DNA from: Paenibacillus sp. FSL R7-0273
GTDB lineage: Bacteria; Bacillota; Bacilli; Paenibacillales; Paenibacillaceae
NCBI RefSeq assembly: GCF_000758625.1
Contig: NZ_CP009283.1
Span: 1,313,501-1,377,500, forward strand
Direction: 5' to 3'
Length of the DNA stretch: 64,000 nucleotides
Below are positions 22,080 through 62,680 of the stretch, in pieces. The notes beneath the pieces are model-generated. The model was not told the origin of the DNA, made no database searches, and worked only from the letters and a program-made list of their open reading frames with translations. The translations under genes and the position numbers were made by a program. Every line of letters begins with the position of its first letter. Position 1 is the stretch's first letter.

Positions 22080-22375
22080 GTTGGAAGAAAGGGGAGTGCC
22101 TCTGATTCCGGCGGAGTTGGCGGAATGGGCGAAAGGAAAGGCAAAAGTGACTTTGATTCCGGCGCAGGCGGCGGAATGAGCGAAAGGAAAGGCAAATATG
22201 CCTCTGATTCCGGCGGAGTTGGCGGAATGGACGAAATGAAGGGCAAAAGTGCCCTTGATTCCGGCGCAATCGGCGGAATGGGCGAAATCAAAGGCAAAAG
22301 TGCCTCTGATTCCGGCGGAGTTGGCAGAATGGGCGAAATGAAGGGCAAAAGTGCCTCTGATTCCGGCGTATTCTG
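22080..22375. repeat. Tandem array of ~5.5 units of 51 bp
   Basis: A unit containing GATTCCGGCGGAGTTGGCGG and GAAATGAAGGGCAAAAGTG repeats with a 51-bp period and several substitutions per copy. Because 51 is a multiple of 3, several frames on both strands stay open and give artificial 17-residue repeat peptides such as GKSASDSGGVGGMGE. No ribosome binding site precedes the apparent plus-strand ATG at 22077. I read it as a non-coding minisatellite, though a repeat protein cannot be excluded. Confidence 0.75.
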
Positions 22376-30423: not shown

Positions 30424-30609
30424 TTAAGTGGAATTTTGTCATCTATTTTGGGGCCAGCGACCGGCAGGAAGAAACTAAATGGAAAAAGGTCACTTAATTC
30501 CACTGTTTATGCCCGTAATGAGGATTCGGGCTGAAATAGGTGATGTTTTTCCAACTAATCATCAAAATTGCTGAGAAATGAAGGAATTAGGTGTCAGAAA
30601 TCCAACTAA
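30424..30609. repeat. Four-element intergenic cassette E (TTAAGTGGA family)
   Basis: Four related ~27-bp elements are arranged forward, forward, inverted, inverted. Forward copies begin at 30424 and 30475 (51 bp apart); inverted copies end at 30558 and 30609 (51 bp apart). The shared pattern is roughly TTA..TGGA....G.CACCTAATTCC. The two inner copies share GGAAAAA and resemble each other most, and the two outer copies do likewise. Spacers are unrelated. Confidence 0.7.
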
Positions 30610-35405: not shown

Positions 35406-35575
35406 TCGCAAAAAGTCAGGTGGGGCAAAGACGAGACTTTGTTAGTGACTTTCGCAAAAGGCTAAACGGAGCAGTGTAGCTCTTCAATGGATCATGTCGC
35501 AAAAGCCCGGCAGAACAGTGTAGCTCCTTCATTAAGTAACTATATTCAAAAAAATCAGGCGGACCCAGCGTTGCT
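35406..35575. repeat. Four direct repeats of ~46 bp
   Basis: Units begin TCGCAAAAAGTC (35406), TCGCAAAAGGCT (35452), TCGCAAAAGCCC (35497) and TTCAAAAAAATC (~35545). Units 2 and 3 share CAGTGTAGCTC. Copies are diverged outside TCGCAAAAG, and all point the same way, unlike the neighbouring four-element cassette. Confidence 0.55.
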
Positions 35576-35605
35576 CCTTGGATTGAGGCGCTGGTTCGCC
35601 TGTTT
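35556..35605 (+). terminator. Probable terminator of the GH105 gene
   Basis: CAGGCG..CCAGCG pairs with CGCTGG..CGCCTG around a ~18-nt loop, followed by TTTAAATT. It lies about 190 bp after the stop codon. Confidence 0.5.
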
Positions 35606-35624: not shown

Positions 35625-35807
35625 TAACGGACCCAGGAGACGTTATTTACTGGATTTTGAGAGTATTTCTGATCTAACGGACTCAGCAGCCGCTATTTGC
35701 CGCCAAATGACCTCGGAGGCGTAATTTGGCAGTAAATAAGGTCATTTGAGTCCGTTACGTTGGAACGAAGGGCGAGTTTGTGGAAATAACGTCATCTGAG
35801 TCCGTTA
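35625..35807. repeat. Four-element intergenic cassette A (TAACGGAC family)
   Basis: Forward elements begin at 35625 and 35675 (exactly 50 bp apart); inverted elements end at 35757 and 35807 (50 bp apart). Each reads TAACGGACYCA.......TTATTT in its own orientation over ~26 bp, with unrelated 24-bp spacers. The rest of this 705-bp convergent gap (35369-36073) holds the direct repeats, terminators and no credible gene. Confidence 0.8.
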
Positions 35808-42799: not shown

Positions 42800-42983
42800 T
42801 AGCGGACACAGACGACCTTATTTGCTTGTTTTAGCCGTTTTGTCCAAGCTAACGGACTCCAGTGCGCTTATAACTCCCAAAACCCGTCTCGTTGGCTATT
42901 TTGTCAGCAAATAAAGTCTCCTGAGTCCGTTTAGCTCAGGGAATGGGTCGTTTGCTGATAGATAAGGGCTGCAGGGTCCGTTA
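42800..42983. repeat. Four-element intergenic cassette B (TAACGGAC family)
   Basis: Forward elements begin at 42800 (TAGCGGAC, diverged) and 42850 (TAACGGAC), 50 bp apart; inverted elements end at ~42933 and 42983, 50 bp apart. Length and spacing match cassettes A and C. It lies in the 663-bp gap before cobT, which otherwise holds the terminator, a GACAAAT short tandem (43094-43122) and a duplicated CGAGAGATAGA, with no gene. Confidence 0.75.
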
Positions 42984-47280: not shown

Positions 47281-47607
47281 ATGATGATGGCAATTCTGCT
47301 GTTTGTAGTGGCCGGTCTCGCCGAGATCGGCGGCGGTTATCTGGTCTGGCTCTGGCTGCGTGAGTCCCGTCCGCTCTGGTACGGACTTACAGGCGCTGTC
47401 ATCCTGATCGCATACGGGATCATCCCGACACTGCAGAAATTCCCGTCCTTCGGGAGAGTGTACGCGGCATACGGCGGTGTATTCGTTGTGCTGGCAGTCC
47501 TGTGGGGCTGGCTGGTTGACAAAAAAACACCGGATATGTACGACTGGATTGGCGCTGCCATCTGCATCATTGGAGTATCCGTCATCCTCTGGGCTCCAAG
47601 AAGCTAG
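47281..47607 (+). CDS. YnfA family (UPF0060) small membrane protein
   Basis: The 108-aa protein has four membrane segments and the UPF0060 landmarks [44 protein letters not shown] and [20 protein letters not shown]. YnfA resembles small multidrug resistance exporters. It starts 2 bp after cbiP and so rides on the cobalamin operon; a functional link is doubtful. The first TAACGGAC element of cassette C begins 2 bp after its stop codon. Confidence 0.9.
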
Positions 47608-47608
47608 T

Positions 47609-47791
47609 TAACGGACCGGAATGATCTTCTTTGCCGCTACAATCCAACATTCTCCTTCTAACGGACCCCAGCGCCGTTATTCAGTCATATTGAAGCGAAA
47701 AACACGTTCTAGACCGGCAATAAAGGCTCCTCAGTCCGTTAGCCCGGGCAAATGCAGCAGATAGGGAAAATAACGGCGCTGCGGTCCGTTA
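47609..47791. repeat. Four-element intergenic cassette C (TAACGGAC family)
   Basis: Forward elements begin at 47609 and 47659; inverted elements end at 47741 and 47791, both pairs exactly 50 bp apart. The second forward element and the last inverted element are complementary at 22 of 23 positions. The remaining part of this 476-bp convergent gap (to 48083) contains a terminator and no gene I can support. Confidence 0.8.
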
Positions 47792-62492: not shown

Positions 62493-62680
62493 TATAGCTG
62501 CACTTTCTGCAATTAAAATCAGTAGAATCAGCTTTTTCAGCGTATAGCTGCATTTCGTACAATTAAATTAGCCCAAGACAGCAGGAATCAGCATTTTCCC
62601 GTTTTTTAATTGCAGAGAGTGCAGTTAAACGGCAGATGCGGTGAAAAACAGGTGTTTTAGTTGTATGAACTACACTTAAA
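62493..62680. repeat. Four-element intergenic cassette D (TAGCTGCA family)
   Basis: Forward elements begin at 62493 (TATAGCTGCACTTTCTGCAA) and 62543, 50 bp apart; inverted elements end at 62629 and 62680, 51 bp apart. The first forward and first inverted elements are complementary at 21 of 23 positions. The sequence is unrelated to the TAACGGAC family, but the geometry is the same. The rest of this 453-bp gap holds the HAD terminator and the LCP leader. Confidence 0.75.

Follow-up and report, generated by a model that had tools for sequence, protein, structure and literature searches.

Wrapping of DNA guided by its sequence, at many set positions along the chromosome, is known mainly from eukaryotes and archaea. 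The sopC centromere of the F plasmid has dyad sites at a fixed step that are wrapped by a partition protein, in one tandem array of 43-bp like units per plasmid. A single Lrp-type octamer has a dimer spacing of about 30 bp, a distance that the 50-bp steps of the cassettes described here do not fit, and the wrapping by LrpC is reportedly right-handed, as it is called in the title of one study. For bacteria, the accessible text of two papers describes phased wrapping, by gyrase (PMC6379681) and in RemA promoter regions (PMC8481266). The E. coli gyrase motif is presented in the available part of PMC6379681 as symmetric, long and phased in G/C content; its period over 130 bp is 10.75 bp, its central 36 bp form a part of their own, and gyrase sites are reported there to be over-represented in BIME-2 repeats. 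For RemA, PMC8481266 proposes a ring around which DNA is wrapped, with A/T-rich protections of 7 bp, at least six in number and 3 bp apart, and the same accessible text describes LrpC as four dimers with their DNA-binding heads facing outward. A topological role has been proposed for the REP/BIME elements of E. coli and other bacteria in the available parts of PMC2817692 and PMC3733652. The gyrase motif is the closest described signal to the cassettes reported below, and the nearest wrappers described for Bacillus, among the literature found and as far as the accessible text of PMC8481266 goes, are RemA rings and Lrp octamers.

The DNA analysed here, referred to as the window, is a 64-kb stretch of the 7.29-Mb chromosome of a Paenibacillus genome (G000). 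It contains five cassettes, each with four sites, which belong to three sequence families:

35625..35807, no strand assigned: cassette A, 183 bp, order ++--, family A, core cTAACGGACnnannnGnCnTTATtT
35625..35650, plus strand: cassette A outer site 1
35675..35700, plus strand: cassette A inner site 2
35701..35731, no strand assigned: cassette A central spacer, symmetry centre at 35716
35732..35757, minus strand: cassette A inner site 3
35782..35807, minus strand: cassette A outer site 4
42800..42983, no strand assigned: cassette B, family A, 184 bp
47609..47791, no strand assigned: cassette C, family A, 183 bp
30425..30608, no strand assigned: cassette D, family D, step 51, 184 bp, core approximately TARKTGGAwwwwnGnCAcYTAATT
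62495..62678, no strand assigned: cassette E, family E, 184 bp, core approximately TARYTGCAnnnnnTGCAnTTA

A preliminary description of this DNA had placed the octamer TAACGGAC at 35625 and 35675 and its reverse complement up to 35757 and 35807, and all four were found as claimed. The same element does recur in cassettes B and C, with one mismatch in two of the four octamers of B (TAGCGGAC at 42800 and AAACGGAC at 42932), and cassettes D and E repeat the geometry of A with different cores. Cassette C begins after a single base beyond the stop codon of a UPF0060 gene (47281-47607). Three CAGTGTAGCTC-like repeats at steps of 44 and 50 bp lie immediately upstream of cassette A (35463-35601) and are also present in relatives; short tandem repeats of about 20-40 bp directly follow cassettes B and C in relatives G032 and G022 (L131, L133).

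We searched the own genome for further copies. The core pattern, at up to two mismatches, has 50 matches compared with 1 for a reversed control pattern, and pairs of TAACGGAC at a 50-bp step, at up to one mismatch, occur 28+27 times (control, 1+0). Single elements at random spacing, the picture that the preliminary description had set against its proposal, were not seen: 48 of the 50 core matches are inside cassettes and 2 outside. Family A comprises 39 listed cassettes, in 34 of which all four sites are recognisable, with one site degraded or interrupted in the remaining 5; a 40th candidate (2473336) was left out because it has only one good octamer. The 34 four-site cassettes are 183 bp (25), 184 bp (8) or 182 bp (1) long, with steps of 50 bp (60) or 51 bp (8) and an inner span of 83 bp (33) or 82 bp (1). 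The set was found through the TAACGGAC pattern, which itself accounts in part for the conservation of those 8 bases, and the other core columns are reported apart. A scan for the layout alone, with any sequence allowed, gave 47 raw matches at five geometries (182-184 bp, steps 50-51) in 1.06 Mb of own DNA and 0 at five control geometries; the matches include families A and D and tandem palindrome arrays, and the scanned stretches were chosen around cassettes and so are no random sample of the genome.

These palindrome arrays form a further family, F, of tandem units of about 30 bp (like GAAATSARAGGCAnnnnTGCCTYTSATTTC) at 51-bp steps with a few of 50 or 52, with 3 to 10 units called per array. 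Family F occurs in the window at 22233-22364 (3 units called; 51-step matches also at 22105 and 22156) and elsewhere in the genome at 223799, 442843, 1190173, 1196779, 1917733, 4555567 and 4636739. A family-D cassette is amplified in five tandem copies at 7001576-7003090 (L264), beside simple repeats.

By naive gene call the 39 cassettes are intergenic, two of them overlapping gene ends by 16 and 31 bp. They lie in convergent (14/39), tandem (20/39) and divergent (5/39) gaps, compared with 27, 61 and 25 among the 113 fetched gaps of at least 250 bp, a difference that we judged not compelling as a preference for gap orientation.

The spacing was then left free. GTDB genomes were scanned for TAACGGAC, 35-65 bases of any kind, TAACGGAC, 52-82 bases of any kind and GTCCGTTA, a pattern that allows 31 values for each gap and therefore 961 combinations. 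The scan found at least 120 loci and one viral contig, with 220 matches listed over both strands, on both of which one cassette usually counts. Among the matches listed, 218 of 220 have a step of 49-51 and an inner distance of 74-75, and the commonest pair is 50/75 (179 matches); the two exceptions are a 45/75 match off the grid and a 51/85 match in Cytobacillus (L143), which is a tandem palindrome array of another kind. The fixed spacing is thus recovered, among the matches listed, with the gaps left free. Hosts among these matches are mostly Paenibacillus, with Fontibacillus, Cohnella, a Bacillus sp., a Pontibacillus and unclassified Paenibacillaceae. The one match in viral contigs is a family-A cassette (L263:11013-11195) between genes of a contractile-tail prophage-like contig, the neighbouring genes having been judged contractile-tail-like by reading their translations.

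At up to one mismatch, family A matches in 23 of 60 genomes (own included) from 5 of 17 genera, and family D in 15 of 60; a few of these genomes are close to the level of the control, with no more than one or two matches each (G027 and G053 for A, and G001, G030 and G055 for D, are examples). With the patterns used, 37 of 60 genomes lack a family-A match and 45 of 60 a family-D match, and neither family is therefore essential. Around the terminus, the central 20% of the map has few family-A cassettes in the own genome (1 of 38 loci compared with 7.6 expected) and in G022 (1 compared with 9.2), whose cassettes are largely orthologous to those of the own genome, and family D in the own genome has the same lean (6 of 56 listed compared with 11.2). 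The more distant G014 has no such depletion (10 of 63 compared with 12.6; its largest gap, near the map end, may reflect the listing of 100 of 103 rows), and we make no claim on nucleoid occlusion or segregation.

The sites themselves have a dyad character. Without gaps, 65 of the 78 half-cassettes align, and their core cTAACGGACnnannnGnCnTTATtT is an imperfect dyad of about 22 bp in which the first half is nearly invariant and the second half weaker. In the relatives G039 and G047 the core is a near perfect palindrome (for example TAACGGACACGCGTGTCCGTTA), and starts at 50, 61 and 50 bp are seen directly in G047:C31 and G039:C9. The ++-- order can thus be read as showing which way the stronger half points, and on these alignments we read the underlying cassette design as four putative dyads at 50-61-50. 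Measured between centres, the four sites are about 50, 61 and 50 bp apart, or 5, 6 and 5 helical turns of 10.07 bp each, in a mirror-symmetric layout. An array in G047 (C100) has five sites spaced by 50, 50, 61 and 50 bp. Family D has its own core type (TARKTGGA...GnCAcYTAATT) with a step of 51 and a total of 184 bp, and family E, with a TARTTGCA...TGCArTTA core, is similarly spaced; at three places in the genome its named half-sites run --++. Unlike sopC, the cassettes are many, dispersed and mirror-symmetric, with unrelated spacers.

The spacers had been called unrelated, and in sequence they are: identity among the 39 own cassettes has a median of 0.35 and a maximum of 0.57 over 741 pairs, with no common sequence. 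They are not random, however, because a strict 10-bp rhythm of A/T against G/C is common to them. A/T-rich blocks occupy positions 20-23, 29-32, 39-41, 50-52, 68-73, 80-82 and 90-93, alternating with G/C-rich blocks, and this recurrence of A/T-rich blocks every ~10 bp, which takes in the central spacer, is a family-level property. When spacer positions alone are counted, the 39 own cassettes give a best period of 10.06 bp (bootstrap 95% 10.04-10.10), 107 cassettes of other species (those with exact 50/75 spacing among 146 distinct extracted sequences) one of 10.08 bp, and 14 family-D cassettes one of 10.06 bp (of the 84 scan rows for family D, 34 halves and 14 full cassettes were used). At 10.5 the amplitude falls to half of the best, and at 10.75 to 0.09-0.13 of it. 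All 39 own cassettes are in phase singly, and the 107 and 14 others on average. The rhythm runs through the symmetry centre and is locked to it. It is absent from flank windows (44 of 78 positive; mean score 0.016 compared with 0.25 in cassettes), is not seen by eye in the profile of the 100 bp outside the cassette ends, and is lost on within-spacer shuffling, where the highest of 200 shuffles scores 0.044 against the cassette mean of 0.25. Helically phased multi-site DNA, as in wrapped operators of the Lrp/RemA type, is therefore present. The phasing shows DNA bending anisotropy; which protein uses the bending is not given by the phasing.

We compared orthologous cassettes between species. 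The own sequence matches six loci of Paenibacillus sp. PastM-3 and P. typhae at 85-94% over 2.5-5.9 kb. An orthologue in the own set exists for 17 of 20 fetched G022 cassettes, giving 20 pairs when A, B and C are added. These pairs have 13 indels in 3660 cassette columns compared with 89 in 5200 flank columns, and their flanks differ at 0.09 to 0.64. Differences amount to 0.096 in core columns and 0.237 in spacers (the 10 of 20 pairs without cassette gaps); for core columns outside the search pattern the values are 0.066 and 0.235 (12 of 20 pairs, at most 55 ungapped differences). Changes between A/T and G/C affect 49 of 414 A/T-block positions (0.118) compared with 123 of 523 unphased spacer positions (0.235), with only slight resistance at G/C-block positions (0.190); flank columns past a 60% local-identity filter, which favours slow columns, change at 0.117, like the A/T blocks. 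On these indel and substitution rates, what is retained is the sites, the length and the A/T blocks, and the remainder of the spacer drifts. For the window, the loci in relatives were located by their neighbouring genes, independently of the pattern. G022 has all three of cassettes A, B and C; G120 also has all three, with some octamers of A changed; and G032 has B and C. In G098, A again has some changed octamers and B retains only its last site. In G064, A is truncated and B and C are absent, and C is also missing from G009, G083 and G011.

In summary, fixed spacing when gaps are left free, conservation in place of sites and length, and helical phasing support the selection on geometry that had been suggested from the window. 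The spacing, in-place conservation and phasing also support, on the sequence, the multi-site protein platform that had been one of three suggested forms, and on balance we think it probable that the cassettes are sequence-encoded platforms for wrapping double-stranded DNA.

An alternative is that the cassettes are a non-autonomous mobile repeat of MITE or REP type, with sites for a transposase or recombinase, a geometry suited to a synaptic complex and harmless copies that persist. We regard this as unlikely. The cassette ends are inverted copies, and other transposons are known that have a pair of binding sites at each end. Among 13 cassettes from G045 the median spacer identity is 0.82; in G014 there are near-copies, both tandem and dispersed, with the listed arms alike along their length and spacer identity compared for 3 cassettes only; and the own genome has family-D near-copies at 7.00 Mb. 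The near-copies in G045 and G014 mean that a cassette can multiply as a unit in some lineages. However, spacer identity among the 39 own cassettes is at most 0.57, yet their sites and length stay in place from one species to another, and dead copies of a mobile repeat would not be preserved in this way. When loci were compared in search of empty sites, deletions or unrelated insertions turned up, none of them a clean empty site; cassette B in G064 and G098 looks to have been lost by deletion. A terminal duplication was not seen by eye in the flanks. Mobility also gives no reason for phasing through the centre.

The cassettes share some features with REP/BIME elements: like them, they are dispersed, intergenic and multi-copy (39 copies), consisting of palindromic units in ordered sets with several families per genome. 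Unlike them, the cassettes have no GTAG/CGTC end tag (the consensus of 65 of 78 half-cassettes starts cTAACGGAC and ends TTATtT) and no hairpin arms kept by compensatory change, the second half-site being variable with G or C opposite the same base. The REP transposase domain PF01797 has 0 matches in the own genome and is absent from 11 of the 23 family-A genomes (own included). The unrelated spacers of fixed length and helical phase, and the four sites in one layout, are further differences.

Insertion sequences are known to target REPs. One foreign sequence starts at the same core position in four own cassettes (933706, 1386453, 2543059 and 4691047), is listed also at L096:8505-9782, and at 2543059 encodes an IS110-family transposase (DEDD_Tnp_IS110, Transposase_20); the cassette cores seem to be the target of an IS110-family element.

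It is quite improbable that the cassettes are strong DNA gyrase sites that wrap phased DNA and relieve positive supercoils. The symmetry, length and phasing of the E. coli motif and its link with BIME-2 count for this, since the cassettes too are long, symmetric A/T-G/C phased sequences that can be read as wrapped DNA, and they are intergenic and somewhat rare in divergent gaps (5/39 compared with 25/113). However, the cassettes have a period of 10.06-10.08 with little amplitude at 10.75, their centre is phased as well, and gyrase leaves three families of base-specific sites of about 22 bp unexplained. At 10.07 bp and 183 bp they thus differ from a motif of 10.75 bp and 130 bp that has no specific 22-bp sites and forms no repeat family.

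Equally concerned with wrapping, and very improbable in our estimate, is the proposal that a RemA ring (8- or 16-mer) forms the wrapping core with site-specific proteins as guides, the 16 turns between the outer site centres answering to 16 subunits. The cassettes resemble RemA and Lrp/LrpC octamer regions of Bacillus in that both suggest multi-contact wrapping round an oligomeric ring. The outer site centres are 50+61+50 = 161 bp apart, which is 16.0 turns at 10.06 and would fit two turns round an 8-fold ring, although this is arithmetic and not evidence. RemA-like matches occur in 60 of 60 genomes, with two in 56, and presence therefore cannot decide; the genes are there with or without family A or D and do not track the cassettes. 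RemA targets are described in the accessible text of PMC8481266 as promoters with poorly conserved sequence, not as 22-bp dyads, and that text makes no mention of a 50-61-50 spacing for RemA or Lrp.

A structured RNA or bidirectional terminator formed by forward/inverted pairing is extremely improbable. In its favour, the inverted octamers complement the forward ones and the cassettes lie in intergenic DNA, 14 of 39 in convergent gaps, but spacer-arm likeness is 0.342 within compared with 0.337 between cassettes, self-complementarity of the central 15 bp is likewise 0.267 within compared with 0.310 between them, folding energy against spacer-shuffled copies has a mean z of -0.76 (below -2 in 4 of 39), and the 10-bp rhythm has no evident use there. 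The folded RNA and the cruciform, the other two suggested forms, accordingly find no support: arms, covariation and folding energy are all ordinary for the RNA, arms neither pair nor covary for the cruciform, and the co-variation of forward and inverted copies proposed as a check was sought at variable core positions and in spacer arms without being found. In the window, no match attains the gathering score of any Rfam family. A CRISPR-like repeat-spacer array was set aside because the copies are mirror-inverted, as judged from the layout.

For the wrapping platform that we favour, a mechanism can be proposed. The four putative sites would lie on one face of the DNA, the inner one, where a dimeric sequence-specific protein would bind each of them; between the sites, minor grooves rich in A/T would bend toward the protein, and the roughly 183 bp would coil round a protein core into a compact nucleosome-like particle. 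A period below 10.5 may point, weakly, to a left-handed coil holding negative supercoils. Related proteins that differ in specificity would serve the three families, A, D and E, found together in one genome, and the likely use would be as a local clamp on supercoiling or on chromosome folding between genes. In G045 the copies spread as units, and part of the shared cassette design could therefore be descent.

The most far-reaching form of this proposal is one that we put forward tentatively and that may well not hold: Paenibacillus and relatives would carry chromosome-wide programmed nucleosome-like particles, with 183-bp left-handed coils, a dedicated four-dimer assembly, a paralogue for each of families A, D and E and a role as intergenic supercoil or folding nodes.

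No description of these cassettes was found in titles and abstracts of the open-licence literature, and reports beyond it are possible; the available part of the P. vortex genome paper gives 184 global repeats, unspecified (PMC3012674). Because the known kinds that we tested each fail a defining feature or stay candidates, and no published description was found, we would call the cassettes, as judged from their DNA, a categorically new kind of element. If this is true, a dispersed bacterial element whose copies share only four sites, a fixed length and a 10-bp rhythm would be a handle on chromosome folding, and the cassette would be a ready bait for finding its protein.
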